In this document: in pieces, positions 4,627 through 18,565 of the stretch
Position numbering within the stretch: position 1 is the stretch's first letter
Layout: every line of letters starts with the position of its first letter
Origin: Chthoniobacterales bacterium
GTDB taxonomy: Bacteria; Verrucomicrobiota; Verrucomicrobiia; Chthoniobacterales; UBA10450
DNA: 35,788 nt
NCBI GenBank assembly: GCA_013821455.1
Contig: JACDGS010000040.1
Span: forward strand, 1 to 35,788
Direction of reading: 5' to 3'
Made by a program: the position numbers and the translations under genes
Notes under the pieces: model-generated
Told to the model about the DNA's origin: nothing
The model's database searches: none
The model's input: the letters and a program-made list of their open reading frames with translations, nothing else

Positions 4627-4760
4627 TGTCATCCCGAGCGCAGTGGAGCGAAGCGTAGCGAGTCGAAGGATCCCGCTGGGTTACTGGGAAGATTTCGCGC
4701 ACGCGCTTCACGGCAACTCCACGGGATCCCTCGACTTCGCTCCGCTTCGCTCGGATGACT
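4627..4760. repeat. Intergenic inverted-repeat element, copy 2
   Basis: The element opens TGTCATCCCGAGCG and closes with CTTCGCTCGGATGAC, giving inverted ends. The right half (GCGCTTCACGGCAACTCC onward) matches the reverse complement of the copy at 18591-18743 with few differences. It occupies most of the 269 bp between rpsA and the GDSL gene. The rest of that gap shows no gene. Confidence 0.7.
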
Positions 4761-4868
4761 TGCTGGACAGCTACACCGCAACTCAGTCATCCGTTTTCCG
4801 CCGACTCCAGAAAAGCCTTCTCCGCGTGGCATTGAATACGCTCCCGTTTTCGTCGTCCTACGCACTTC

Positions 4869-6644
4869 ATGAATTCACATCGCCCGATCTCTCGCTCCAT
4901 CTTCTCCATTTTCCTGTTCGCTGTCCTGTCGTTAGGCGCGAACGCTTTTGCGCAGGCTCCTGCCTTCAGTCAGGTCGTCGTCTTCGGCGATAGCTTGTCG
5001 GATGACGGCAACGTGCGGCACCTGCTCGAAGATCAGTACGGTATCAGTTACCCCGGCGGCGGTTATAATTACAGCGACGGCCGCTTTACCAATAGCGCGG
5101 ACACCGACCCAAACTCCGAGCTGTATGCCGGCACCTGGCACGAGCAGCTCGAGCGCGATTTTCTCCATCTCAGCGCCGGCGCCATCATTAACAGCCTCGA
5201 CGGCGGCACCGATTACGCCTTCGGCGGCGCGACCACGGGCGATGGCACGAGCGCGCGCACGGTCATCTCGAATCCCGATCCGTTCGTCGGCGGCGAGTTG
5301 ACCGTCGATGTCGATAACGTCGGCAAACAGGTAGGCGACTATATTGCCGCGAACACTCCGGACGCCAATGCGCTCTACATCGTTTGGGGCGGTGGCAACG
5401 ATTTTTTCGATGACAACAGCCTTGATAATGTCCCCGTCGTCGCCGCCAATGTCGCCGGCCTCGTGCAGCAACTCGCCGAAGCCGGCGCGCGCAGCATTCT
5501 CGTGCCTAACGTTCCGCCGCTCGGCCTCGTGCCACATTATAAGGACGACCCCGAGACCGCGGCGGCTTTGAACGCCGCCGCCGCCAGCTATCGCGACCAG
5601 CTCAACACCTCCCTCGACGCTACCGTTGCCACTCTCGCGGGCGAAGGGATCACGATCACCCTTTATCGTTTCGATGTTTACGGACTCTTCTACCGGCTCG
5701 CCGCAAATCCGGAAGACTACGATTTCACCAACGTTACTGACAGCGACCAGGGCGGCGACACTAGCCCGGATCAATATCTTTTCTGGGACGATATCCACCC
5801 GACCACCGCTGGACATTTCCAGATTGCTTCCGGCGCTTTCGATCTGCTTAGCGGCACCACGCAACCGCCCGCGCGCGCGCTGAATTTTTCCTCACGTCTC
5901 GATGTCGGCGTCGGCGAAAACGTTCTTATCGACGGCCTCATCGTGAGCGGGCCCGGGCCGAAGACCATTCTCTTCCGCGGACTCGGACCTTCCCTCGCGG
6001 TGGATGGCACTCCGCTCGCCAATACGCTCGCCGATCCGAAGCTCCAGTTGTTTCAGGGCGAGACGCTTCTTCGGACTAACGACAACTGGAAAGGCACCCA
6101 GGAAGCTGCGATCAACGACACTGGCCTGCCGCCCGACAACGACCTCGAGTCCGCCATGGTCGTGACGCTCGATCCGGGCACTTACACGATCATCCTCAGC
6201 GGGACGAACAACAGCACCGGCAACGGTCTGGTCGAAGCCTACGATCTCGACACCGCGCCTGTTTCCACGCTGACCAACACCAGCACCCGCGGCTTCGTGC
6301 AGACCGACGACAACGTGCTCATCGGCGGCTTCATTGTCGGCGATGGCGGGAGCGATACCTTCGTCGTTAGGGCGATTGGACCCTCTCTCGCGGACGCGAG
6401 TATTACGAATCCTCTCGCCGACCCGACGCTCGATCTTTACGACGCCAACGGCGTCCTGATTAAGAGCAACGACAACTGGCGCGACGCGCAGGAATCGCTC
6501 ATCCAATCCACCGGCTTGGCACCGACAAACGATGCCGAAGCGGCCATCGTCCGCTCGCTCGCGCCGGGCAATTACACCGCAGTCGTTAGGGGAAAAGATG
6601 GCGGGACTGGGGTGGCGTTAGTGGAAGTTTACAATCTGAAATAG
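4869..6644 (+). CDS. Secreted GDSL/SGNH esterase with two C-terminal repeat domains
   Basis: The 591-residue product has a signal peptide (about 1-29, ANAFAQA). A GDSL hydrolase domain follows at about 33-330. Block I is GDSLSDDGN with nucleophile Ser42, block III is GGGND (Asn177) and block V is DDIHP with Asp307 and His310. These give the Ser-Asp-His catalytic set of autotransporter- and phospholipase-type SGNH esterases. The C-terminus is a tandem duplication (about 338-460 and 470-591). Each unit has NVLI-G, a GPSLA phrase, a SNDNW/TNDNW phrase and PG-YT. It is a beta-rich module I have seen in Verrucomicrobiota secreted proteins. No autotransporter barrel or PEP-CTERM tail is present. 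The substrate is unknown. Confidence 0.88.
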   Translation: MNSHRPISRSIFSIFLFAVLSLGANAFAQAPAFSQVVVFGDSLSDDGNVRHLLEDQYGISYPGGGYNYSDGRFTNSADTDPNSELYAGTWHEQLERDFLHLSAGAIINSLDGGTDYAFGGATTGDGTSARTVISNPDPFVGGELTVDVDNVGKQVGDYIAANTPDANALYIVWGGGNDFFDDNSLDNVPVVAANVAGLVQQLAEAGARSILVPNVPPLGLVPHYKDDPETAAALNAAAASYRDQLNTSLDATVATLAGEGITITLYRFDVYGLFYRLAANPEDYDFTNVTDSDQGGDTSPDQYLFWDDIHPTTAGHFQIASGAFDLLSGTTQPPARALNFSSRLDVGVGENVLIDGLIVSGPGPKTILFRGLGPSLAVDGTPLANTLADPKLQLFQGETLLRTNDNWKGTQEAAINDTGLPPDNDLESAMVVTLDPGTYTIILSGTNNSTGNGLVEAYDLDTAPVSTLTNTSTRGFVQTDDNVLIGGFIVGDGGSDTFVVRAIGPSLADASITNPLADPTLDLYDANGVLIKSNDNWRDAQESLIQSTGLAPTNDAEAAIVRSLAPGNYTAVVRGKDGGTGVALVEVYNLK

Positions 6645-6708
6645 CGGGCTCGCTGCACAGTGGCGTGCTCTGCTCGCTTCGCTCTCGACCGCGCGATCGA
6701 GTAAAACT

Positions 6709-6824
6709 TGTCATCCTGAGCGGAGCGAAGGACCTCACAACTGCAAGCCACGCCTCCACGAAAACAGAACACCTCGATTGCAGATGCGGGGTCCCTCCCC
6801 GCGCTTCGCCGGCTCGGGATGACA
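6709..6824. repeat. Intergenic inverted-repeat element, copy 3
   Basis: It begins TGTCATCCTGAGCGGAGCG and ends GGCTCGGGATGAC. It shares GGACCTC(A/C)CAACTGCAA with copy 1 and the GGGGTCC...CGCTCGGGATGACA right end. It fills the space between the convergent GDSL and oxyR genes, where it could act as a bidirectional terminator-like structure. That role is inference. Confidence 0.7.
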
Positions 6825-6834
6825 TCACTTATCG

Positions 6835-7725
6835 TTAGGCAACTCGCGCCCGTCCCGCGATCGCAACGATGTAGGAACGCAACTCAAGCGCCGCGCGCGA
6901 AAGATGCCGCCCCTTTTTCCAAACCAATGCAATCGTCCGCAGCGGCTTCGGTTTGCCTAACGAACGATAACTGACCCGCGCGGAAGACGCACGCGCCATG
7001 GCCGGCACCATCGAGATTCCGACGCCCGCCGCCACCAGCGCCTGCACCGTCTCCATCTGCGCGCTCCGGCAACTGATCTGCGGAGTAAATCCCTTCGCGT
7101 AGCAAAACTGAAGCGTCTGCGCACCGAGACAGTGCGTCTCCGCCATGAAGATAAATTTTTCCGGCTCGAGATCGCTGGCGGCGAGCCGGCGTTTGCGCAG
7201 GAGCGGATGCCCTTTCGGCAAAACGAGCAGCAGCTCTTCGCGGAAAAGCGGCCGCACTTCCACCCGCGCCGAAACGACCGGCAGACTAACGAGGGCTAGA
7301 TCAATCTCGTCGCTTTCCAGCGCACGCAAGGCTCGGTCGGTTGTTTCCTCGTGCACGATGGTCGAGACCGCCGGACAGCGCCGGGGAAATCCGCGGATGA
7401 TCTTCGGGAGCAAATAAGGCGCGATCGTCGGCAGCGCCGAGAGATGCACCTGCCCGCGCGGCTCTCCGCGCGCATCGCGGACTTCGCGATGCGCTTCCTG
7501 CAATTCATGGAGCACTCTGGCGGCGCGTTCCTGGAACATTTCCCCGGCCGAAGTGAGGTGCACGCTCCGCGCTTTGCGCTCGAAGAGACGCTCGCCCAGT
7601 TCGCCTTCCAATTTCAAAATCTGCTGGCTCAGCGAAGGCTGAGCGATGTGACAACTTTCCGCCGCCCGGCTGAAGTTTCCTGTTTTCACGACCGCAAGGA
7701 AATACCGGAGCTGATGTAGTTCCAT
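6835..7725 (-). CDS. oxyR: OxyR, peroxide-sensing LysR-family regulator
   Basis: This 296-residue LysR-type regulator has an N-terminal winged helix-turn-helix (about 1-60; LRYFLAVVKTGNFSRAAE and SLSQQILKLE) and a substrate-binding-like sensor domain (about 90-290). It carries cysteines at 199 and 208 in the context HCLGAQTLQFC. That is the same spacing, and even the same numbering, as the redox pair Cys199/Cys208 of E. coli OxyR, so assignment as OxyR rather than a generic LysR protein is strong. It is divergent from a catalase gene with an OxyR-type operator between them that overlaps its own start codon, which predicts autorepression. The stop codon is in a CGTTAGGC octamer. Start MELHQLRYF matches the usual LysR N-terminus. 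Confidence 0.93.
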   Translation of the reverse strand: MELHQLRYFLAVVKTGNFSRAAESCHIAQPSLSQQILKLEGELGERLFERKARSVHLTSAGEMFQERAARVLHELQEAHREVRDARGEPRGQVHLSALPTIAPYLLPKIIRGFPRRCPAVSTIVHEETTDRALRALESDEIDLALVSLPVVSARVEVRPLFREELLLVLPKGHPLLRKRRLAASDLEPEKFIFMAETHCLGAQTLQFCYAKGFTPQISCRSAQMETVQALVAAGVGISMVPAMARASSARVSYRSLGKPKPLRTIALVWKKGRHLSRAALELRSYIVAIAGRARVA

Positions 7726-7760
7726 AGGCAGTGCCTATCGGCGAGATAGGGAATTCATCT
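7724..7760. promoter_or_regulatory. OxyR operator in the oxyR-katE intergenic region
   Basis: The published OxyR consensus is four tetrads, ATAG-N7-CTAT-N7-ATAG-N7-CTAT. Here ATAG (7724-7727), CTAT (7735-7738) and ATAG (7746-7749) are exact with 7-base spacers. The fourth position (7757-7760) reads ATCT, half matching. The left half, 7724-7738, is a perfect 15-bp palindrome, ATAGGCAGTGCCTAT. The site covers the oxyR start codon (7723-7725) and lies 76-112 bases upstream of the katE start. This fits repression of oxyR and peroxide activation of katE. Confidence 0.85.
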
Positions 7761-7835
7761 TTTCTTCCTATCGCATCAAACCGTAGTTTGGAAAACGCGC
7801 AACAACCTCGCGCCTCATTCAACCAGGAAAAATTC

Positions 7836-10004
7836 ATGCCGAATAAAAACCGCAAGAACAACGGAACCACCGCCAAGATCGAAGCGCTCGCCGCCAGCAC
7901 CTCCATCGCCGACGACAGTCGCCTAACGACCAACCAGGGCCTCGTCATCAATGACGACAACAACTCGCTCAAGGCCGGCGAGCGTGGGCCGACTTTACTG
8001 GAGGATTTTCATCTCCGGGAAAAAATCACCCACTTCGACCACGAACGCATTCCCGAGCGCGTCGTCCACGCGCGCGGTGTCGCCGCGCACGGCTTCTTTC
8101 AATGTTACAAGGGCAACGACGACCTGACCAAAGCCGGCTTCCTCACCGATCCGTCGCGCCAGACGCCGGTCTTCCTCCGCTTCTCGACCGTTGCCGGCTC
8201 GCGCGGCTCGGCCGATCTGGCGCGCGACGTCCGCGGCTTCGCGATCAAGTTTTACACCGATGAAGGCGTCTTCGACATGGTCGGCAACAACATCCCGGTC
8301 TTCTTCATCCAGGACGCGGTCAAGTTTCCCGATTTCATCCACGCGGTGAAACCGGAGCCTAACAATGAAATCCCGCAGGCCGCTTCCGCGCACGACACCT
8401 TTTACGATTTCATCTCGCTCGCGCCCGAGACGCTCCACATGCTCATGTGGGTGATGTCGGACCGCGCGATTCCGCGCAGCCTGCGCATGATCGAGGGCTT
8501 CGGCATTCACACCTTCCGCTTCATCAACGAGGCCGGAAAATCGCGCTTCGTGAAGTTCCATTTCAAGCCGGCGCTCGGGATGCACTCGGTTACGTGGGAC
8601 GAAGCGCTCAAGATCAACGGCGCCGATCCCGATTTTCACCGGCGCGATTTGTTTGACACGATCGACCAGGGCGGCGTGGCGGAATGGGAGTTCGGCGTCC
8701 AGGTGGTCGAGGAAAAAGACGAGCATAAATTCGACTTCGATCTGCTCGATCCGACCAAGCTCATCCCCGAGGAAATGGTGCCGGTGCGCATGCTCGGAAA
8801 GCTCACGCTCAATCGCAACACCGATAATTATTTCGCGGAAACGGAGCAGGTCGCGTTTCATCCGGGGCACCTCGTGCCGGGGATCGATTTCTCGAACGAC
8901 CCGCTCCTAGCCGGGCGGCTGTTTTCCTACACCGATACGCAGCTCACGCGGCTCGGCGGTCCGAACTTCGCGCAGATCCCGATCAATCGGCCGACCTGCC
9001 CGATGCACAATAATCAACGCGACGGCCACATGCAGCAGGTCATCAATCCGGGCGCGTCGGCCTATCAGCCGAACACGGTTGGTGGCGGCTGCCCGATGCA
9101 GGCGAAGGAAAACATGGGCGGCTTCGTCAGCTACGCGGAGAAAATGAGCGGCGCAAAAGTGCGCGGAAAATCGGAGAAATTCTTCGACCACTTTAGCCAG
9201 GCGTCGCTCTTTTTCCGGAGCCAGAGCGAGCCGGAACAGAATCACATGATCGGCGCGCTCACCTTCGAGCTCGGGATGGTAAAACGCGCGGCGATCGTCG
9301 ATCGCATGCTCTTTCTTCTCTCGAAAATCGACACCGGAATGGCGAATAAAATCGCTGAAGGCTTGGGCATGAAAGTTCCGAAATCGATCGAGGGCCGGCT
9401 CAACATGGATGTCGGCGCCGATGCCGGCAAAGAAACGGAAACGAAGCCCGCGAAGAAATCCGATTTCGTGTCGCCCGCCCTGAGCATGGCGAACACGGTC
9501 AAAGACACGATCAAGACACGAAAGATCGCGGTCCTCGCCGCCGACGGCGTGGATGAAGCCTCGCTCAACGCGATGAAAAAAGCCCTAACGAGCGAAGGCG
9601 CGTTGATCGCGGTCATCGCTCCGCGCGGTGGCACAATCAAAGGCTCGAACGGCGGCGAGATCATGGTCGATCACGCGCTGCTCAACGCCGCCTCGGTTTT
9701 GTTCGACGCGGTTTACGTGCCGGGTGGCGCGAAGAGCGTCGAGGCTCTGCTGGCCAACGCCAAGACGATCCATTTCGTCAATGAAATGTACAAGCATTGC
9801 AAGGCGATCGCCGCGACCGGCGAAGGCGTGAATTTGATTCGCGCTTCCTCCATCCCGACGGACCAAAACGGCAGCGCCGATCCGGCTTTGCTCGTGGAGG
9901 AGAAGAGCGACGCGAAAAAAATCTCCGCGAAGTTCATCCAAGCGATCGCGCAGCATCGCAATTGGGAGCGCGAGAAATTCGCGGCCGCGAACACACCCGC
10001 CTAA
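7836..10004 (+). CDS. katE: Large-subunit catalase (HPII type) with C-terminal DJ-1/PfpI-like domain
   Basis: The enzyme disproportionates hydrogen peroxide in the cytoplasm. The 722-residue length and layout are those of clade 2 (HPII-like) catalases. Seen directly are the distal histidine (His78 in VVHARGVAAHG), the VGNNIPVFF segment with the distal asparagine (151-152), and the proximal heme-ligating tyrosine Tyr365 with Arg361 in RLFSYTDTQ. From about residue 565 there is a flavodoxin-like DJ-1/PfpI-type domain (KIAVLAADGVDE). I chose ATG 7836 because AGGA sits eight bases upstream. The open frame runs back to 7731 but overlaps the operator. Its TAA stop lies in the first of two tandem GCCTAACG motifs. 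Regulation by the divergent OxyR is strongly suggested by the shared operator. Confidence 0.95.
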   Translation: MPNKNRKNNGTTAKIEALAASTSIADDSRLTTNQGLVINDDNNSLKAGERGPTLLEDFHLREKITHFDHERIPERVVHARGVAAHGFFQCYKGNDDLTKAGFLTDPSRQTPVFLRFSTVAGSRGSADLARDVRGFAIKFYTDEGVFDMVGNNIPVFFIQDAVKFPDFIHAVKPEPNNEIPQAASAHDTFYDFISLAPETLHMLMWVMSDRAIPRSLRMIEGFGIHTFRFINEAGKSRFVKFHFKPALGMHSVTWDEALKINGADPDFHRRDLFDTIDQGGVAEWEFGVQVVEEKDEHKFDFDLLDPTKLIPEEMVPVRMLGKLTLNRNTDNYFAETEQVAFHPGHLVPGIDFSNDPLLAGRLFSYTDTQLTRLGGPNFAQIPINRPTCPMHNNQRDGHMQQVINPGASAYQPNTVGGGCPMQAKENMGGFVSYAEKMSGAKVRGKSEKFFDHFSQASLFFRSQSEPEQNHMIGALTFELGMVKRAAIVDRMLFLLSKIDTGMANKIAEGLGMKVPKSIEGRLNMDVGADAGKETETKPAKKSDFVSPALSMANTVKDTIKTRKIAVLAADGVDEASLNAMKKALTSEGALIAVIAPRGGTIKGSNGGEIMVDHALLNAASVLFDAVYVPGGAKSVEALLANAKTIHFVNEMYKHCKAIAATGEGVNLIRASSIPTDQNGSADPALLVEEKSDAKKISAKFIQAIAQHRNWEREKFAAANTPA

Positions 10005-10013
10005 CGCCTAACG
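9999..10013. repeat. Tandem GCCTAACG octamers at a convergent gene junction
   Basis: Two GCCTAACG copies overlap by one base. The first supplies the TAA stop of katE and the second supplies the TAG stop of the small gene on the opposite strand. This is the densest spot of the dispersed octamer in the window. Confidence 0.85.
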
Positions 10014-10262
10014 AGTTCGTTCCGAAATGGAAAGGTCGTCGCCGCTATCGCACCGGATTTGCACGCTGACGCACGCGTCGCTTGGATCGTCTCCGGCGTG
10101 GTTGCGCAGCCATTCCGCACGCGCGCGTTTGCGGAGCCGCTCGTAAACTTTGTCGAGATTGCGCATCAACGCCTCCGTCTCCGGGTGATCTGCGATCTTC
10201 TCGGGTTTGGCTTTCGTTCGGCTCTTCTCCGAACGGGCTCGCTTGGGCGGCAACCTTTTCAT
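10008..10262 (-). CDS. Small basic hypothetical protein
   Basis: An 84-residue product begins MKRLPPKRARSEK, very rich in Lys and Arg over its first 25 residues. It continues with a predicted helix (ETEALMRNLDKVYERLRKRARAEW) and a short polar tail. I do not recognise a family. Support for a real gene comes from a good ribosome-binding site (GGAG, six bases before the ATG at 10262), its convergent position next to katE, and a stop codon at the shared motif pair. A longer start at 10331 is possible but lacks this signal. It could be a DNA- or RNA-binding protein, but that is a guess from charge alone. Some doubt remains whether it is expressed. Confidence 0.5.
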   Translation of the reverse strand: MKRLPPKRARSEKSRTKAKPEKIADHPETEALMRNLDKVYERLRKRARAEWLRNHAGDDPSDACVSVQIRCDSGDDLSISERTR

Positions 10263-10386: not shown

Positions 10387-11178
10387 ATGGATCGCGAGCT
10401 TCTCATCGTCTCCACGCTTTGCTTTTTTCTCGCCATGGTGCGGACGGCGCTGGCCATCCGGAGCGGCGGCTATCGCCCGGCGGGGTTCAATTTCTTCGCC
10501 ATCGCACTCGGCTTTGTTTTTCAGACCGCGTTTCTCAGCGTGCGCGGCCATGCTCTCGGCCGTTGCCCGATCACCAACCTCTTCGAGGTTTTTATCTTTC
10601 TCGCCTGGTCGGTCTCGCTGATTTATCTGCTCATCGGCCCCACGTATCGGCTCTCGTTGATGGGCGCGTTTACGGCGCCGCTCGTTTTTATCCTGCAAAC
10701 TTTCGCGCTCATCGCACCGATCGATGCGCCCCACGGACTAACGCACCGGCCCACGCCGTGGCTCGAGTTTCACGCTTCGATTTCGCTCATCGCCTACGGC
10801 GCGTTCGCTCTCGCCTGCGTCGCGGGCCTGATGTATCTCGTGCAGGAGCGGCAACTGAAAAGGCGGCAGCTCAACTCGATGTTCTATCATTTCCCGCCGC
10901 TAACCGACCTCTTCGCGGCGATCACTCGCCTGCTCTGGCTCGGGTTTGGCTTGCTCACGCTCGGCATCGCCTCCGGCTTTTTTACCGGTCAGCCGCTGCC
11001 CTACGGCAAAGTCGCCTGGTCGTTAGGCGTCTGGCTTTTCTATGCGGCGATTCTCGTGGCGCGGCATCTCGGCACGACCGCGCCGCGGCGGATCGCGGCG
11101 CTCTGTGTGGTCGCGTTCAGCGGGGCCCTCACTTTGCTTTGGGGAATTACTTTCCTCTCTCAAACCCAGCCGACGTGA
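10387..11178 (+). CDS. hemX: HemX/CcsA-family cytochrome c assembly-type membrane protein
   Basis: A 263-residue integral membrane protein with about eight hydrophobic segments, in the cytochrome c assembly (CcsA/CcmC/HemX) family. Typical segments are GRCPITNLFEVFIFLAW (58-74) and a conserved histidine, His129, in WLEFHASISLIAYGAF. The tryptophan-rich WGxxWxWD heme-handling motif of true CcsA is not seen. The equivalent C-terminal part reads YGKVAWSLGVWLFYAAIL. Together with the position directly before hemA, this favours HemX, which in Bacillus influences the level of glutamyl-tRNA reductase. The stop overlaps the hemA start by one base (TGATG), indicating translational coupling. It heads the tetrapyrrole operon. 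A role in cytochrome c maturation cannot be excluded. Confidence 0.85.
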   Translation: MDRELLIVSTLCFFLAMVRTALAIRSGGYRPAGFNFFAIALGFVFQTAFLSVRGHALGRCPITNLFEVFIFLAWSVSLIYLLIGPTYRLSLMGAFTAPLVFILQTFALIAPIDAPHGLTHRPTPWLEFHASISLIAYGAFALACVAGLMYLVQERQLKRRQLNSMFYHFPPLTDLFAAITRLLWLGFGLLTLGIASGFFTGQPLPYGKVAWSLGVWLFYAAILVARHLGTTAPRRIAALCVVAFSGALTLLWGITFLSQTQPT

Positions 11179-12227
11179 TGCACCTTTTTTGCGTCGGCCT
11201 CAGTCATCACACCGCAAACGTCGAGACGCGCGAGCGCTTCGCTGGCCATGCAGAAGTCGATCGCAACTTGTGCGCAGCCACCGGCTGCACGGAGGCGCTA
11301 CTTCTCACGACCTGCAACCGTGTGGAAGTTTACGCCGCTTCCGCGGATTCGGTGCCGACCGAGCAGATCGCGAGCTGTCTTTTGCAAACCGGCGCGTCGT
11401 TAGGCGAAGAGGTGGAATCCTTTTACCGGCACGAAGCGCAGCAATGCGTGCAGCATCTTTTCCGGGTTGCTTCGGGGCTGGATTCCATGGTCATCGGCGA
11501 AACCGAAATCCTCGGCCAGGCCAAGACAGCCTATGCCGCGGCGCGGGAATCCGGTGCGGCCGGCCCTTATCTGCATCGGCTTTTCCAGCGCGCTTTTCGC
11601 GTCGCGAAACAAGTGCGCACCCGCACCGGGATAACCCGCGGCGCCGTCTCGGTCGGGTCGGTCGCGGTCGATCTGGCGGAGCAGATTTTTGGGCACTTCG
11701 AGACCCGCAAAGTTTTATTGTTAGGCGCGGGCGAAGCGAGCGAGCGGACGGCGCGTGCCTTGATCAAGCGCGGCGTGCGCGACCTGCGCGTGAGCAACCG
11801 CTCGCTCGAGCGCGCGGAAGCTCTTGCGGCTTTGGTCGGCGGGCGGCCGGTGACGATGGAAAGTTGGGAAGCACATTGCCGCGAGGTCGATATTTTGATT
11901 ACCTCGACCGCTTCACCGACGCCGCTCGTCACCCGCGAAAAGCTCGCGCCTCTGCTGCGCGATCGGCTCGATCGCCCGCTCTTCATCATCGACATCGCGG
12001 TCCCGCGCGATGTCGCTCCCGATGTGAACGACATGGAAGGCGTCTTCCTTTACGACATCGATTCGCTGCAATCGATCGCCGAAAAATCACTCGCGCAGCG
12101 CCGTCAGCAGATCGTCGCCGGTGAAGACATTATCGCGGGCCACGTGCGCGAATTCGGCGGCTGGTTCACCTCGGCGCGCGCGCGGCGAGAGTCGTCGGCG
12201 CTCGAATTGCGTCCGTCGGAATCGTGA
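11178..12227 (+). CDS. hemA: Glutamyl-tRNA reductase
   Basis: It reduces glutamyl-tRNA(Glu) to glutamate-1-semialdehyde with NADPH, the first committed step of C5-pathway tetrapyrrole synthesis. The catalytic cysteine is Cys46 in LLTTCNRVEVY. The GLDSMVIGETEILGQ signature is at 100-114 and the NADPH-binding GAGE loop at 183-186. At 349 residues it is 60-100 shorter than most family members. The missing part is the C-terminal helical dimerisation domain, which ends after one arginine-rich segment. The start overlaps hemX by one base and the end overlaps hemC by four (GTGA). A much longer upstream frame (from 10059) crosses hemX and is not used. Confidence 0.95.
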   Translation: MHLFCVGLSHHTANVETRERFAGHAEVDRNLCAATGCTEALLLTTCNRVEVYAASADSVPTEQIASCLLQTGASLGEEVESFYRHEAQQCVQHLFRVASGLDSMVIGETEILGQAKTAYAAARESGAAGPYLHRLFQRAFRVAKQVRTRTGITRGAVSVGSVAVDLAEQIFGHFETRKVLLLGAGEASERTARALIKRGVRDLRVSNRSLERAEALAALVGGRPVTMESWEAHCREVDILITSTASPTPLVTREKLAPLLRDRLDRPLFIIDIAVPRDVAPDVNDMEGVFLYDIDSLQSIAEKSLAQRRQQIVAGEDIIAGHVREFGGWFTSARARRESSALELRPSES

Positions 12228-13117
12228 CGGACCGGATCGTCCTCGGCTCGCGCGGGAGCGAGTTGGCGCTGGCCCAGACGCGCCTCGTGGCAGCGGCGGT
12301 GCGACGCGCGTGGCCCGAGTTGGAAGTGGCGCTCGAAATCATCCGCACGAGCGGCGACGAGAATAGCAGCGCGGCTTTGCCTAACGATCGCAAAGCCGGG
12401 CGCAAAGGAATGTTCACGCGCGAGATCGAAAAAGAGCTTCTCGTTAGGCGCATCGATGTCGCCGTGCACAGCGCGAAAGACCTGCCAAGCGAGCGGCTCG
12501 CCGAGCTGGAAGTGCGTGCGACCCTGCCGCGGGCGAAAACCGAAGATGTCCTGATCACAAAATCCGGCGCTAGCCTAACGAGTCTGCCCGAGGGCGCCAC
12601 GATCGCGACTGGGAGCGTGCGCCGGCGGCATCAACTGCAGTGGCGAAGACCGGATCTGCAAGTGGTCGATCTGCGGGGCAACGTGCCAACGCGGCTGCGG
12701 AAGTTGCGCGAGAACGACGCTTGGAGCGGAATCGTGCTCGCGCGCGCGGGGCTTGAACGTTTGGGTCTGGAATTGGGCGGAGAGATTCTTTCGCAGGAAA
12801 TCTTCGTGCCCGCTGGCGGTCAGGGCGTCATCGCGCTGCAAATCCGCCGTGACGACGATGAGGCGCGGCGAATCGTCGATGCAGTTAACGATCAGAACAC
12901 GTTCCTCGCCTGGCGCGCAGAGCGGGAATTTTTGCGACTGCTCGACGGCGACTGCGATTCACCGGTCGGCGTGCACGCGCAGGTGACCGGCGCGACGATG
13001 CAAATGCGGGCGCAGATTTTTGCAGAAGTTACGATGCAAAGCGGCGAGCTAAACGGCGCCAGCGACGACCCCGAAGCGGTGGCGCAAATGTTGATGCAGA
13101 AAATTTATGGCGGATAA
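12224..13117 (+). CDS. hemC: Porphobilinogen deaminase (hydroxymethylbilane synthase)
   Basis: It polymerises four porphobilinogens into hydroxymethylbilane using a covalently bound dipyrromethane cofactor. The cofactor cysteine is Cys244 (LLDGDCDSPVGVH) and the catalytic aspartate is Asp86 in VHSAKDLP. The substrate-binding arginines are in GSVRRRHQL (130-138) and RGNVPTRL (151-158). The 297-residue length is normal. Translation starts at GTG 12224, overlapping the hemA stop by four bases, and the end overlaps the next gene by 11 bases. Three CGTTAGGC/GCCTAACG octamers lie within 200 bp here (12379, 12442, 12573), encoding Pro-Asn, Val-Arg with a rare AGG codon, and Leu-Thr with a CTA codon. 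Confidence 0.97.
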   Translation: MTDRIVLGSRGSELALAQTRLVAAAVRRAWPELEVALEIIRTSGDENSSAALPNDRKAGRKGMFTREIEKELLVRRIDVAVHSAKDLPSERLAELEVRATLPRAKTEDVLITKSGASLTSLPEGATIATGSVRRRHQLQWRRPDLQVVDLRGNVPTRLRKLRENDAWSGIVLARAGLERLGLELGGEILSQEIFVPAGGQGVIALQIRRDDDEARRIVDAVNDQNTFLAWRAEREFLRLLDGDCDSPVGVHAQVTGATMQMRAQIFAEVTMQSGELNGASDDPEAVAQMLMQKIYGG

Positions 13118-14630
13118 AAAGAAAACTGGACGTTGTTATCTGGTCGGCGCGGGTCCGGGCGATCTCGGGCTGGTCACCTTGCGCGCGCGGCAACTGATCG
13201 AGCGCGCGGAGGTGATCGTGTACGATTATCTTTGCAATCCCGAGATGCTGGCCTGGGCGCCGGAGAAGGCGGAAATCATTTACGCCGGCAAGAAAGCGGG
13301 CGCGCACACGCTCAAGCAGGAGGAGATCAACGCACTCCTGGTCGAGAAAACGCGGGCCGGTTTTGAAGTCGTTAGGCTGAAAGGCGGCGATCCATTTCTG
13401 TTCGGTCGCGGCGGAGAAGAAGCGCTCGCGCTGGCGGACGCGAAGCTCGCTTATGAAGTGGTGCCCGGTGTCACTTCCGCAATCGCGGCGCCGGCTTATG
13501 CCGGCATTCCGGTGACGCAGCGCGGGATCACCTCGCACGTCACTTTCTTTACCGGCCACGAGGATCCGGAGAAAACAGAAAGCGCGATCGATTTCGCCGC
13601 GCTGGCCAAACTCGGCGGAACGCAGGTCATGCTCATGGGCGTGGAGCGGATCGACACGATCGCACAGGAAATGCGCGGGCACGGAATGCCTAACGACCTT
13701 CCGGTGGCGCTGATCCGCTGGGGCACGACCGGCCGGCAGGCGATCGTTAGGGGAACGCTGGGCAACATCGCGGAGAGAGTGCGCGACGAAAACTTCGAGC
13801 CCCCGGCGGTAGCCGTTTTCGGCGAGGTGGTGTCGTTAGGCCAGCGGCTCGACTGGCAGTCCGCGCGGCCGCTCGCGGGCAAGCGCATCGTGGTCACGCG
13901 CACGCGCAAACAGGCCGGCGCGCTGAGCGAGCGCCTGCGCGATCTCGGCGCGGACGTGATCGAGTTGCCCACCATTCGAATCGAGCCACCGACCGATCTG
14001 CGCGCCTTCGCCGAGCTGGTGCAGGACTCGCATGGCTACGACTGGATCATCTTCACCAGTCCAAATGGCGTGAGCGCTTTTTTCGAAATGTTTTACAAAC
14101 TCTACGACGACGCGCGCGATCTTGGCGCGGCGCGCATCGCGGCGATCGGGCCGGCCACCGCGCAGCGCGTGCGCGAGTTCCATTTGAAGGTCAATCTGCA
14201 ACCAGACGAGTACGTGGCCGAGGCGGTGGTGCGCGAATTCAAGAGGGAAGGCGACATCGAAAACCTGCGCATTCTTATCGCCCGCGCGGAAGAGGCGCGG
14301 GACTTGCTACCGAGGGAACTCGGAGCCATGGGCGCCATTGTCGATGTTGCCGTTGCCTATCGCACCGTCGCGGAGACGGACGATCGGACGGAGGCGCGCC
14401 GACGACTGGCGGAAGGGGGGGCCGACATGATCACGTTTACCAGTTCTTCAACGGTGGAAAATTTCCTCGCCCTCGGTCTGCCCTGGCCGGCCGGGATGCA
14501 GGTCGCGAGCATCGGCCCGATCACTTCGCAGACGGCGCGCGATTGCGGCCTAACGATCGCAGTCGAAGCGCGCCAGCACGACGTGCCCGGCCTGGTGGAG
14601 GCGATTCGCCGCTTTTATGGCTACGCGTAA
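13107..14630 (+). CDS. cobA-hemD: Fused uroporphyrinogen-III C-methyltransferase / uroporphyrinogen-III synthase
   Basis: Two enzymes are joined in one 507-residue chain. Residues 1 to about 245 are a SAM-dependent uroporphyrinogen-III methyltransferase (CobA/SUMT), with the GAGPGDLGLVTLRA loop, VVRLKGGDPFLFGRGGEE, PGVTSA and PVTQRG motifs. This part makes precorrin-2 for siroheme or cobalamin. Residues from about 255 are uroporphyrinogen-III synthase (HemD), which cyclises hydroxymethylbilane. It has the VVTRTRKQA start, FTSPNGV and TFTSSSTVENF. Such fusions are known in several phyla. It overlaps hemC by 11 bases. Four octamers fall in it (13370, 13688, 13834, 14548). hemB and downstream heme genes are not in the window. 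Confidence 0.95.
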   Translation: MADKKKTGRCYLVGAGPGDLGLVTLRARQLIERAEVIVYDYLCNPEMLAWAPEKAEIIYAGKKAGAHTLKQEEINALLVEKTRAGFEVVRLKGGDPFLFGRGGEEALALADAKLAYEVVPGVTSAIAAPAYAGIPVTQRGITSHVTFFTGHEDPEKTESAIDFAALAKLGGTQVMLMGVERIDTIAQEMRGHGMPNDLPVALIRWGTTGRQAIVRGTLGNIAERVRDENFEPPAVAVFGEVVSLGQRLDWQSARPLAGKRIVVTRTRKQAGALSERLRDLGADVIELPTIRIEPPTDLRAFAELVQDSHGYDWIIFTSPNGVSAFFEMFYKLYDDARDLGAARIAAIGPATAQRVREFHLKVNLQPDEYVAEAVVREFKREGDIENLRILIARAEEARDLLPRELGAMGAIVDVAVAYRTVAETDDRTEARRRLAEGGADMITFTSSSTVENFLALGLPWPAGMQVASIGPITSQTARDCGLTIAVEARQHDVPGLVEAIRRFYGYA

Positions 14631-14636
14631 TTAGAA

Positions 14637-15290
14637 ATGAGCGAGGTGACCGAGATCGATTTCGCATCCGCGATGAGCGAGCTGAGCGGGCAGGCGTCGG
14701 GCACGGAAGAATCCCGCGTCGCTTCCGGCATTTCGATTTTGATCAGCGGAATTCACGCGCTCGGCCAGCGCGTCGATGCGCTCGAGGAAACGATGGTGCG
14801 GCAGTTTGAGGGATTGCACTTTCAAAAAATCGAGCAGCAGCTCGCGGCGCTGCGCAACAGCGAGTCGGTGAATCAAAAGCTTTTCGATTCGCTGCACGAG
14901 GAGCTGATTAGTTACCGCGATAATTTCGTGCGCGACTTATTGCAGAAACCTTTCATTCGCGATCTGCTCGGGCTCTTCGACGATCTCAATCGCCTGGCCG
15001 CCGAGGCGACGAAGCACGCCGCGGGCGAAGGTGCGAACGAGGTCGCGAATCAGCTGCGCGCTAACGTCGAGAACACGTTGCATTCGCTGGTGGAAATCCT
15101 GCATCGTCTCGAGGTCTCGGAGATTGAAGAAAAAGAGACGGTGGATCGCACCTTGCATCGCGTCATTAGCGTGGAGAAAGCGGATTCGGTCGAGGAAGAC
15201 GGCCGCATCGTCACGAGGCTGAAGCGCGGCTTCATCTGGCGGGACAAGGTTCTGCGGCCGGAAGAGGTCGTCGTTAGGCGATTTTCCTAA
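14637..15290 (+). CDS. Divergent GrpE-like nucleotide exchange factor
   Basis: A 217-residue protein with a GrpE-like arrangement. An N-terminal helical region is probably coiled-coil (about 35-100, with LISGIHALGQRVDALEETM and QQLAALRNSESVNQKLF). A GrpE core follows (YRDNFVRDLLQKPFIRDLLGLFDDLNRL, then a C-terminal part VISVEKADSVEEDGRIV and KRGFIWRDKVLRPEEVVV). GrpE releases ADP from Hsp70. This copy is divergent from housekeeping GrpE and starts only six bases after cobA-hemD. An Hsp70 follows 121 bases downstream, so it most likely serves that chaperone. Gene order (exchange factor, Hsp70, J-like protein) supports a dedicated chaperone set. Identity as GrpE-like is fairly firm, and its specificity is inferred. 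Confidence 0.82.
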   Translation: MSEVTEIDFASAMSELSGQASGTEESRVASGISILISGIHALGQRVDALEETMVRQFEGLHFQKIEQQLAALRNSESVNQKLFDSLHEELISYRDNFVRDLLQKPFIRDLLGLFDDLNRLAAEATKHAAGEGANEVANQLRANVENTLHSLVEILHRLEVSEIEEKETVDRTLHRVISVEKADSVEEDGRIVTRLKRGFIWRDKVLRPEEVVVRRFS

Positions 15291-15411
15291 ACCGCCGTCC
15301 ACCCGCGGGCCGCGAAAGTCGTTCGCGATTGTCCGCAGCGTCGGGCATGAAAACTGCATTCAGTGGAAGCGTCAGGCTGTTTCGGCACCACCACTTTCTC
15401 TGGTAATAATC

Positions 15412-16974
15412 ATGAACAAACGCAAAGCCGTCGGGATCGATCTCGGCACCACATTTTCCGCCGTCGCACACATCGACAGCTACGGTAAACCGCAAATCAT
15501 CCCGAACGCCGAGAGCGAACGCATTACGCCTTCGGTCATCCTCTTCGACGGCATGAACGCCATCGTTGGCACAGTCGCGAAAAATAACAGCGTGGCCGAG
15601 CCGGAGAAGATCGTCGATTTCGTGAAGCGTGAGATGGGCAAATCGAAGGAGCAATTTCATCGCGAATTCGATGGGAAAAATTATTCGGCCGAAGAGCTCT
15701 CGGCACTCATTCTGAAAAAGCTAAAGTCCGATGCAGAGAAATATCTCAAGGTCGATGTGACCGACGCAGTCATCACGGTGCCCGCCTATTTCAATGACTC
15801 GGAACGGACTGCAACTATCACCGCCGGCCGGCTCGCTGGTCTGAATGTTCTGCAAATTATCAACGAACCGACCTCGGCCGCGCTCGCTTACGGCCTCGAT
15901 AAATTGGACGAAGACCAAACGGTTTTCGTTTTCGATCTTGGCGGCGGAACGTTTGACGTCACGCTCATGCGGATCGAATCGCATCGGCTCGAAATGGTCG
16001 CGACGAATGGCGATCACCGGCTTGGGGGCAAGGATTGGGACGATGTTATCGTTAACTGGGTCGCGGACGAATTTGATCGCCAGCACGGCGAGAATCCGTT
16101 GCTCGACCTACAGAGTTACCAGGATCTGCAGAGCCGCGCCCTGGCTGCTAAAATCCAACTCTCGAGCCGTCCGCGCACGACCATCGTGCACAATCACAAC
16201 GGCAAAAGCATCAAGCTCGAACTGACCCGTGAAGATTTCGAAAAGATGACGCGCCATCTCGTGGAGAAGTGCAAGGCGATCTGCGAAATCGTCATGCGGG
16301 AGGCGAAAATGGAATGGAACGAGGTCGATAAAATTCTTCTCGTCGGCGGCATGACGCGAATGCCGATGGTGCGCGCGATGATCGGCGAGCTAACATCCGT
16401 CCCCTTGGCCGAAGATGTGAATCCTGATGAGGCGGTCGCGGTTGGGGCCGCGATCCAAGCGGTCCTTTCGCTTCTGCACGAGGAAGACATTTCCGGCGAG
16501 AAAACGCTACCCGCGGAGACGCGTCAGCAATTTTCCTCACGCGAGGGCGGCTTGATCCAAGTCCGCAACATCACCTCGCACACACTCGGCGTTGTCCTTT
16601 GGGATGAGACGCAACTCGAGGAATACGTCTTCCCGATGATTCGCAAAATGACCGCGATGCCCGCAACCGCAAAAAATTCCTTCGGCACTGCGACGGCAAA
16701 TATGCAGCGTGCGATCGTACGGATCGTCGAGGGCGAAAGCTCGCTTCCAGCGGAATGCACGCCGCTCGGAATCTGCGACGTGGAACTGCCGCCGTTTCTG
16801 CCCAAAGGCTCGCCCGTCGAGCTGACGTATGAATACAACGGCAACCAAGTCCTCGAAGTCGCGGTCCAGGCCTGCGGGAACAGCGCCACGGTTTCTATCG
16901 AGCGTAAGACCGGTCTGAGCGAAGGAGAATTGGACCGCGCGACCAAAGCACTTGGCCAACTGACCGTCGCCTAA
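15412..16974 (+). CDS. Lidless Hsp70 (DnaK-like) chaperone
   Basis: A 520-residue Hsp70. The ATPase domain is complete: GIDLGTTFSAVAH at 8-20, VFDLGGGTFDVTL near 171-183, and VGGMTRMPMVRAMIGEL in the second phosphate region. A beta-type substrate-binding domain follows (ITSHTLGV onward). The protein stops just after TGLSEGELDRATKALG, where DnaK would begin its helical lid, so about 110 residues of lid and tail are missing. It should bind peptides with fast exchange, and it may hold a specific partner rather than act as a general foldase. It is flanked by a GrpE-like gene and by a J-like/SUMF1 fusion that starts one base after the stop. A separate housekeeping dnaK presumably exists elsewhere. 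Confidence 0.9.
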   Translation: MNKRKAVGIDLGTTFSAVAHIDSYGKPQIIPNAESERITPSVILFDGMNAIVGTVAKNNSVAEPEKIVDFVKREMGKSKEQFHREFDGKNYSAEELSALILKKLKSDAEKYLKVDVTDAVITVPAYFNDSERTATITAGRLAGLNVLQIINEPTSAALAYGLDKLDEDQTVFVFDLGGGTFDVTLMRIESHRLEMVATNGDHRLGGKDWDDVIVNWVADEFDRQHGENPLLDLQSYQDLQSRALAAKIQLSSRPRTTIVHNHNGKSIKLELTREDFEKMTRHLVEKCKAICEIVMREAKMEWNEVDKILLVGGMTRMPMVRAMIGELTSVPLAEDVNPDEAVAVGAAIQAVLSLLHEEDISGEKTLPAETRQQFSSREGGLIQVRNITSHTLGVVLWDETQLEEYVFPMIRKMTAMPATAKNSFGTATANMQRAIVRIVEGESSLPAECTPLGICDVELPPFLPKGSPVELTYEYNGNQVLEVAVQACGNSATVSIERKTGLSEGELDRATKALGQLTVA

Positions 16975-16975
16975 A

Positions 16976-18565
16976 ATGGTCGAAGCGGTGATGAATTTTC
17001 CGATTCCGTTGCCGGACGATCCGCGCAAGTGGGATGGCTGGAATCGCTTTAGCTCGACCGATCTTTACGAGCGCCTGTGCCTCGACGGCCGGACCAATCC
17101 AAGCAACGAGTTGATCGAGGAGCGCTTTCGCGAGCTGTTGCTTTGGTGGCAAAAAAAGCTGCCCCTAAAAAATCAGCCGAGTAATCCGCTCGCTCAGTTG
17201 TTGCGCTCGGGGCTCGAAGAATCGTCTCGTTATCTCACCGAAGCGCGCGTGGAATTGCTCAACCCCGAGCGCCGCCAAAAGATGGACGAGGAGCTGGCCG
17301 CGCAAGCGGAGGAGCGCGCGATCGCCGAGTTCCAAAAGTTTCTCGCTTTCGCCCTGAATGACAAAACTCTCCTCCCGCACGAGGAGGAAACCTTGCTGCA
17401 ATTCGGACGCGACAACGGCTTGAGCGTCAAGCGGGTGGAGGAGTTAATCGCACACGAGTTAGAGGCCACCGGGGCTGTCCGCGTCGTGCCGCCGACCGCC
17501 GAAGAAACGGCTGAGGCCGTTAAAAATGCGACCCGCAAATTAGAACCGAGCGAGGATTTCCACCGCATGCTGCGGCTAAGCGGGCTCGATAGCGACGGAA
17601 TGACGGACGATCAGCGCGACGCCTTTATTAACGTCGCTGAAAATCTCGGGCTCGATCCCGGCGACGCCGAGGATTTAGTCGATCTTTATTTCGAAGAAAT
17701 TGACGGCGCGAGCGCCCCCGTTCCTCCCCCAAAGCCCGTCGTAAAGACCGCGCCGAAAACGAACACGGCGCCCGTCGCTGAATCCGCTCCGGTCGCGCCA
17801 ATCGATGTCGCCGGCGAACGGGCGCGCTTTCAGAGATTCAACAGCACGATCGAAACGGAAATGCTTTTCGTTCCGTCGGGAACGTTCCGAATGGGGAGCG
17901 ATGCACCCGACGCCGCGCCTAACGAACAGCCGATCACGCCGGTGACGCTCACTCGTTTTTATCTGTCGCGGCATCCGATCACCAACGCGCAGTACGAGAT
18001 GTTCGATCCGAGTCACGCACGCAAACGCGCTGCGGGCGCGGGCGATCGCCATCCGGCGGTCTATGTGAACGCCGCGGAAGCCGCGAAGTTTTGCCAATGG
18101 CTCAGCACGCAGGAACGCCGCCGCTATCGGTTGCCGACGGAGGCGGAATGGGAATACGCCGCGCGCGGAACCGATGGCCGCCAGTATCCCTGGGGAAGTC
18201 AAACTGGTCGCGGCGACCTCGCGAACTTTGCCGATCGCAACACGGTCTTCGCCTGGAGCGATCGCGAGGTCGACGATGGCTACGCGGAAAGTTCACCGGT
18301 GGGTGCGTTCCCGCTAGGCGCTAGTCCGTTCGGGATCGAGGATATGGCGGGGAATGTTTGGGAATGGTGTCTCGATTTTTTCGAGCCTTATCGTGGGACG
18401 GCGAAAACAAATCCGCGCGGAGCGAAATCGGGAATGAAGAAGGTTTACCGGGGAGGCAGTTGGAAATCGCGCTTCAATAGTCTGCGCGCGACGACGCGCG
18501 GATCGAATTCACCGACTTATTCCTGTAACGATCTCGGGTTCCGGATCGTCTGCGAGTGCGAGTAA
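16976..18565 (+). CDS. Degenerate J-domain / TerB-like helical / SUMF1-like fusion protein
   Basis: A 529-residue protein with three parts. Residues about 25-107 look like a J-domain: YERLCL, then IEERFRELLLWWQKK in the helix II position, then ARVELLNPERRQKMDEEL in the helix IV position. The HPD triad that stimulates Hsp70 is replaced by QKK. Residues about 115-168 and 193-242 are two similar acidic helical modules resembling TerB-like repeats. After a Pro/Ala linker (245-280) comes an FGE/SUMF1-type domain (293-528; FVPSGTFRMGS, RLPTEAEWEYAARG, GNVWEWCLDFF, VYRGGSW, DLGFRIV). The catalytic cysteine pair of true formylglycine-generating enzymes is absent from the RGGSW...R segment. It probably acts as a binding module. 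Met6 is an alternative start. Confidence 0.8.
   Translation: MVEAVMNFPIPLPDDPRKWDGWNRFSSTDLYERLCLDGRTNPSNELIEERFRELLLWWQKKLPLKNQPSNPLAQLLRSGLEESSRYLTEARVELLNPERRQKMDEELAAQAEERAIAEFQKFLAFALNDKTLLPHEEETLLQFGRDNGLSVKRVEELIAHELEATGAVRVVPPTAEETAEAVKNATRKLEPSEDFHRMLRLSGLDSDGMTDDQRDAFINVAENLGLDPGDAEDLVDLYFEEIDGASAPVPPPKPVVKTAPKTNTAPVAESAPVAPIDVAGERARFQRFNSTIETEMLFVPSGTFRMGSDAPDAAPNEQPITPVTLTRFYLSRHPITNAQYEMFDPSHARKRAAGAGDRHPAVYVNAAEAAKFCQWLSTQERRRYRLPTEAEWEYAARGTDGRQYPWGSQTGRGDLANFADRNTVFAWSDREVDDGYAESSPVGAFPLGASPFGIEDMAGNVWEWCLDFFEPYRGTAKTNPRGAKSGMKKVYRGGSWKSRFNSLRATTRGSNSPTYSCNDLGFRIVCECE

Follow-up and report, generated by a model that had tools for sequence, protein, structure and literature searches.

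A conserved, probably dedicated accessory Hsp70 machine in Chthoniobacterales with a lidless Hsp70 and an HPD-less J/SUMF1 adaptor, linked to a tetrapyrrole operon that it may serve

Can an Hsp70 cycle be built around an Hsp70 that has no helical lid and a J-like partner that has no HPD motif? The question is raised by three adjacent genes on a 35,788-nucleotide stretch of contig JACDGS010000040.1 (here called the window) of a Chthoniobacterales bacterium, one of the soil bacteria of this order that carry them. An earlier note, made from the sequence alone, had read these genes as a full Hsp70 cycle in reduced form. The three forward open reading frames were confirmed (14637-15290, 15412-16974 and 16976-18565) and encode the following proteins:

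14637-15290, forward strand: GrpE-like nucleotide exchange factor of 217 amino acids (PF01025, E=2.7e-17), starting 6 nucleotides past hemD.
15412-16974, forward strand: lidless Hsp70 of 520 amino acids (PF00012, E=7e-126), with intact ATPase residues in its nucleotide-binding domain and only the beta part of the substrate-binding domain (beta-SBD).
16976-18565, forward strand: fusion of a J-like region, two helix-pair repeats and a SUMF1-fold domain, 529 amino acids (Pfam and fold match), starting 1 nucleotide past the Hsp70 stop codon.

The triad is real and conserved, and represents a variant of the Hsp70 machine that has so far not been described. Its families were identified with Pfam; the GrpE-like protein scores 63.4 bits against PF01025 (cut-off 25.8), and the C-terminal beta-wing is kept in the aligned GrpE-like family. 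Since a canonical DnaK, a second Hsp70 of about 590 amino acids, DnaJ proteins and a GrpE are all encoded elsewhere in the same genome, the triad is accessory. Of 197 Chthoniobacterales genomes surveyed, 71 carried the fusion protein and 69 the Hsp70 orthologue (the list has 70 entries, including a 43% relative). Both were found in 68 genomes and only one of them in four, each time at a contig edge. The earlier note had held that genomes with the three genes apart would speak against its proposal; a search for the three-gene order across genomes found them linked, and the GrpE, lidless Hsp70 and J/SUMF1 genes are inherited together as a dedicated, conserved triad. When 387 genomes of the phylum were searched with a profile of the J-TerB module, it was recovered in four Chthoniobacterales genomes and in a single genome from outside the order, G510.

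The absence of a helical lid, also remarked on in the earlier note, extends well beyond the window. The PF00012 match spans positions 1-512 of the 599 in the profile and the protein stops after the beta-SBD, while full-length orthologues of 520-521 amino acids end at the same point just past the beta domain. Judged from these shared end points, the absent lid is a family trait, and a degraded or truncated Hsp70 gene was rejected as an explanation because full-length orthologues share the end. The protein is not a DnaK proper, as the lid and canonical linker are absent and it scores 429 bits against the NCBIfam prok_dnaK cut-off of 822.55; nor is it an HscA (331 bits against the NCBIfam cut-off of 708.55).

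For the residue analysis, 42 sequences were aligned against E. coli DnaK, whose numbering is used here; 37 distinct family sequences had been collected besides that of the window. The ATPase residues D8, K70, E171, T199 and D201 were kept in all 42. At the position of Arg167, every one of the 42 had Gln. Gln378 and Pro419 were kept in the lidless Hsp70, Asp481, the clamp of Arg167, was changed to Asn, the linker VLLLD was changed to I-Q/K-V-T/R-N, and an insert of about 28 residues preceded the linker. In the DnaK-DnaJ complex, the HPD aspartate (D35) bonds R167 and Q378, the HPD histidine reaches the Leu391 backbone and the HPD proline touches Pro419 (PMC8215388). Both the DnaK and the second Hsp70 of the window's genome retain Arg167 and, on the sequences aligned, its loss is specific to the lidless Hsp70 family of the triad. 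A second copy of this Hsp70 was observed in one genome (G160; locus L139, reverse complement); it has 528 amino acids, is 67% identical, and is surrounded by response-regulator and kinase-like genes with no J/SUMF1 gene.

On the other side of the pair, the earlier note had placed a J-like domain at about residues 25-107 of the fusion protein, with QKK where HPD should be. Two features are relevant here:

17054-17308, forward strand: J-fold region, residues 27-111 (structure match to J-domains).
17150-17158, forward strand: QKK, residues 59-61, in the place of HPD within the conserved stretch WWQKKLPLKxQPSNP.

A Pfam scan of the 529-residue protein found no DnaJ and no TerB domain, only FGE-sulfatase, and sequence-only comparison with E. 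coli DnaJ gave no match (hhalign probability 0.2%). The J-fold assignment therefore rests on predicted structure. In an AlphaFold model of residues 8-245 (mean predicted local distance difference test score, pLDDT, of 84, and 85-97 in the J-fold region), residues 27-111 matched J-domains at Z 8.8-9.2, with a root-mean-square deviation of 1.8-2.1 Å over 67-70 residues. DnaJ as seen in its complex with DnaK (5nro) matched at Z 7.4, and the J-domain entries scored well above unrelated folds in the search. The fusion protein is thus predicted to have a J-fold, close to where the earlier note had put it. No HPD motif is present. The placement of QKK at its position was borne out by an ungapped alignment of DnaJ Ile21-Asp35 (from helix II); the model instead sets QKK within an extended helix II that is followed by a loop about 11 residues longer. 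In 33 distinct sequences, unlinked paralogues included, Q59 and K61 were invariant and K60 was kept in 32; apart from this single K60N, the whole of WWQKKLPLKxQPSNP was invariant.

The remainder of the fusion protein comprises a helical middle region and the SUMF1-fold domain:

17855-18550, forward strand: SUMF1/FGE-fold domain, residues 294-525 (PF03781, E=4.4e-51), lacking the catalytic cysteines.

The middle region consists of two similar helix pairs. Their likeness to TerB helices, suggested earlier, is a resemblance by eye: TerB was named neither by Pfam nor by the fold search, which barely tested this region and excludes nothing. Residues 96-159 (window 17261-17452) gave a weak PADLOC match to PDC-S48 (E=6e-5). 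The SUMF1 domain matched PvdO at Z 10.6 in the fold search. An initial model of the whole protein had low confidence here (pLDDT below 50 over residues 398-521), so the domain assignment depends on the PF03781 match, which agrees with the SUMF1-fold fusion originally described. In an alignment to FGE chains, KSRFNS stands in place of the two active-site cysteines, and K497, S498 and R499 are invariant across the family. The domain is therefore not an FGE, and an active enzyme of that kind was ruled out; the domain looks like a binder, in keeping with the recognition role first proposed for it. Three other cysteines of the domain, C373, C465 and C528, are invariant and C526 is nearly so (window 18092-18559).

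Well-studied Hsp70 machines all trigger hydrolysis through HPD and Arg167-type contacts. From the altered motif, stimulation of the Hsp70 ATPase by the J-like protein may be changed or absent, and the loss of Arg167 in all orthologues adds weight to docking unlike normal J stimulation. We consider it likely that the triad forms a dedicated Hsp70 machine whose docking is non-canonical. Because the pair lacks the HPD-Arg167 contact on both sides yet keeps the ATPase site, it is a natural experiment on the purpose of the lid and on which elements of the cycle an Hsp70 can do without.

The dedicated nature of the machine is also suggested by a stress-type promoter of its own, which sets it apart from the usual DnaK system. 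Across genera, the roughly 120 nucleotides that separate grpE from hsp70 show no conservation beyond a single block, GGCAYGRAAAYTGCA, and in the window this corresponds to one feature:

15343-15358, forward strand: sigma54-type (-24/-12) promoter GGGCATGAAAACTGCA, GG-N10-GC, about 54 nucleotides before the Hsp70 start codon.

GG-N10-GC is the -24/-12 layout of sigma54 promoters. A consensus score of at least 11 of 12 was reached before the lidless hsp70 in 24 of 35 non-duplicate loci, at 55-71 nucleotides from the start codon, against a background of 0.3-1.5% of random 150-nucleotide windows; none of 117 regions upstream of hem, ccsA and grpE genes reached this score. Site-anchored identity reached 0.75 within the motif, compared with 0.27-0.29 for its flanks; part of the motif value stems from the anchoring, which fixes GG and GC. 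RpoN is encoded in the window's genome (E=7.2e-58), so that both the element, at a conserved distance, and its sigma factor are present. A tight form of the motif was nearly unique in this genome, with two matches (one being the promoter site) against one for a reversed control. In a second genome (G087) its only two matches were the Hsp70 site and the site of an adaptor gene that stands apart from any Hsp70, and the control also matched two; across 13 genomes there were few other matches, and these had the look of chance hits. Since the tight form was itself derived from these sites, this search is in part circular, a problem that does not affect the consensus score. The Hsp70-adaptor pair is very probably under sigma54 control, to judge from this element, and such control, if true, ties an Hsp70 to a signal-specific stress response.

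Unlinked J/SUMF1 paralogues without an Hsp70, 50-53% identical to the adaptor, were found at four loci: L057 (7745-9367), L058 (8053-9684) and L059 (6587-8176), all on the reverse complement, and L060 (8341-9978). All four carry a sigma54-type site 44-59 nucleotides before the start (background 1% per window). They lie in unrelated contexts, and their upstream regions share little beyond that site; because they come from related genomes, the four sites are not fully independent. The orphan adaptors probably act in trans on the operon's Hsp70 as co-chaperones.

What the machine serves may be indicated by its neighbours, which form a conserved operon for tetrapyrrole synthesis:

10387-11178, forward strand: ccsA-like cytochrome c assembly protein (PF01578, 1.5e-19), first gene of the operon, in which gene order is kept.
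11178-12227, forward strand: hemA, glutamyl-tRNA reductase (PF05201, 5.7e-46; PF01488, 1.2e-38), its start set at an ATG inside the open frame.
12224-13117, forward strand: hemC, hydroxymethylbilane synthase (PF01379, 4.8e-66).
13107-14630, forward strand: cobA-hemD fusion, uroporphyrinogen-III methyltransferase/synthase (PF00590, 9.4e-49; PF02602, 2.4e-62).

These four genes overlap or stand a few bases apart, and cobA-hemD is the closest and best conserved neighbour of the triad; yidC/jag lie downstream on the opposite strand, and scans of the window for tRNA and Rfam RNA elements found none. The order ccsA-hemA-hemC-cobA/hemD-grpE-hsp70-J/SUMF1 was repeated in 47 loci from other genomes, and within the family to which the window belongs the hemD-grpE gap was mostly 4-18 nucleotides, with some small overlaps. 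By a hand count from positions, 53 of the 59 genomes that could be decided, across several families, have hemD next to the triad; 13 more were undecidable and left out.

We somewhat favor a dedicated Hsp70 machine that is inducible through sigma54, works with a non-canonical J/SUMF1 adaptor and may serve the tetrapyrrole branch. In such a machine, each step of which is inferred from its parts, basal expression, the GrpE-like gene included, would come with the hem operon, and the Hsp70 and adaptor would be additionally induced from their own promoter through sigma54 and an enhancer-binding protein. The SUMF1 domain would select a client or sense a ligand, and the adaptor would dock on the Hsp70 by means of the altered J-fold together with its invariant segment, WWQKKLPLKxQPSNP, not by the HPD-Arg167 contact. 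The Hsp70 would hydrolyse ATP and, without a lid, hold the client loosely and briefly, which would suit holding or remodelling and not long trapping, before the GrpE-like protein resets it by exchange. The likeliest clients would be enzymes of the tetrapyrrole pathway in stressed cells, for example glutamyl-tRNA reductase or HemD. This client assignment is the weakest point of the proposal and is put forward only tentatively. If true, a chaperone encoded in a tetrapyrrole operon would be a bacterial counterpart of the plant chaperones for these enzymes. The stricter version, in which the HPD-Arg167 trigger has been abandoned on both sides and a tetrapyrrole-devoted, sigma54-induced lidless Hsp70 is driven through another contact, seems to us doubtful as a whole.

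Several observations weigh against this proposal. The sigma54 element was not found in one family (f4), one genus (g34) and some loci of another family (f6). At locus L138, from the same order, two tandem lidless Hsp70s that retain Arg167 stand beside an HPD-less J-like protein, so the losses of HPD and Arg167 are not strictly coupled; their strict co-loss as a signature of pairing was weakened accordingly. The triad lies clearly away from hemD in six genomes (G158, G078, G015, G011, G108 and G152), and in G510, which belongs to another order, no hem genes accompany it. hemD is near-universal (176 of 197 genomes), against about 70 genomes with the triad, and a sister genus (g6) has an intact ccsA-hemA-hemC-hemD series without the triad, followed directly by secDF/yajC on the other strand. 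Tetrapyrrole synthesis thus does not require the triad, and an essential heme chaperone was rejected since triad-free relatives retain the hem operon. As the pathway persists where the triad has been lost, the machine would be a stress aid and not a requirement.

The same observations on hem linkage could instead fit a general sigma54-controlled module for proteostasis or envelope stress, in which the hem genes are an ancestral neighbor and the adaptor family, operon copy and orphans alike, brings varied clients to the lidless Hsp70. The sigma54-type promoter stands at the Hsp70 and not at the hem genes, and the orphan adaptors carry the same element in unrelated contexts, as such a module would have it. 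However, the tight hemD-grpE spacing over many genera and the linkage in 53 of 59 genomes exceed a chance neighborhood, and we regard this explanation as rather unlikely. The inactive SUMF1 site with its invariant KSR, together with an intact ATPase and a changed linker, could also belong to a sensor or signalling complex, in which a glycan or other small ligand is bound by the SUMF1 domain while the Hsp70 serves as an ATP-driven scaffold that folds no client; yet the beta-SBD is fully retained and conserved and the GrpE homologue is kept, as in a chaperone cycle, which makes a sensor improbable. Still further from the evidence is a biological conflict (defence) system of the kind seen in GAP1-N2 neighborhoods or with FGS-domain effectors. 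Sets of HSP70, GrpE and DnaJ fusions as well as FGS domains have been described in conflict systems (PMC7159879), and the PDC-S48 match given above points the same way, but no GTPase, vWA, MoxR or nuclease gene adjoins the triad, it is inherited vertically alongside housekeeping hem genes, and its adaptor is strongly conserved instead of hypervariable, so that a defence role appears very improbable.

Comparison with known systems places the triad apart from each of them. With DnaK-DnaJ-GrpE it shares an Hsp70 with a full ATPase site, a GrpE homologue and a J-fold partner, but it differs in the missing lid, the Arg167 to Gln change, the changed linker and insert, and the HPD-less J partner with its SUMF1 fusion, as well as in its sigma54-type promoter, no CIRCE/HrcA element having been found in the window. 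HscA-HscB is likewise a specialised Hsp70-J pair tied to one biosynthetic pathway, but its Hsp70, HscA, bears a lid and its J-protein, HscB, an HPD motif. Among plant proteins, cpSRP43 is ATP-independent. It resembles the triad as a non-classical chaperone devoted to tetrapyrrole enzymes, being a chaperone of plant tetrapyrrole biosynthesis enzymes (PMC12197082, PMC9992760), but is an unrelated protein. Plant CPP1, J-like without HPD, is a chaperone-like protein of protochlorophyllide oxidoreductase (PMC10423991); it and Tim16/Pam16 share the HPD-less J-fold, a resemblance of kind only (PMC10423991), and have neither a SUMF1 fusion nor a linked Hsp70. GAP1-N2 conflict systems contain HSP70, GrpE and variable proteins fused to DnaJ (PMC7159879), and so have in common with the triad linked HSP70 and GrpE genes and a J-domain joined to another module. 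In contrast, the triad has no adjacent GAP1 or DO-GTPase, its neighbors being the hem genes and yidC/jag, carries SUMF1 in place of FNIII repeats, and is strongly conserved.

The earlier note knew of no described system with this architecture. No published description of it was found in the literature searched, but analogous sets of lidless Hsp70 and GrpE exist elsewhere in the Planctomycetes-Verrucomicrobia-Chlamydiae (PVC) group. At loci L138, L155 and L158 a GrpE-like gene is followed by a lidless Hsp70 of 509-526 amino acids, as in the triad; the partners differ (a membrane-anchored GrpE-like protein, a vWA protein with a small J-like protein, or tandem Hsp70s), and the triad is distinct from these sets in partner, context, promoter and strict conservation. 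L138 (reverse complement, 5833-10019), a second kind of triad that is cut by the contig end, holds a GrpE-like gene, Hsp70s of 515 and 509 amino acids and the HPD-less J-like protein. L153 and L155, both from Planctomycetota and on the reverse complement, encode a membrane-anchored GrpE-like protein and then a lidless Hsp70 of 516 amino acids; pairs of this sort may be common across the PVC group. L158, from another Verrucomicrobiota family (reverse complement, 4663-8002), has a GrpE-like gene, a lidless Hsp70, a vWA protein and a small HPD-less J-like protein, and the Hsp70 at this locus carries a residue other than Arg at the Arg167 position.

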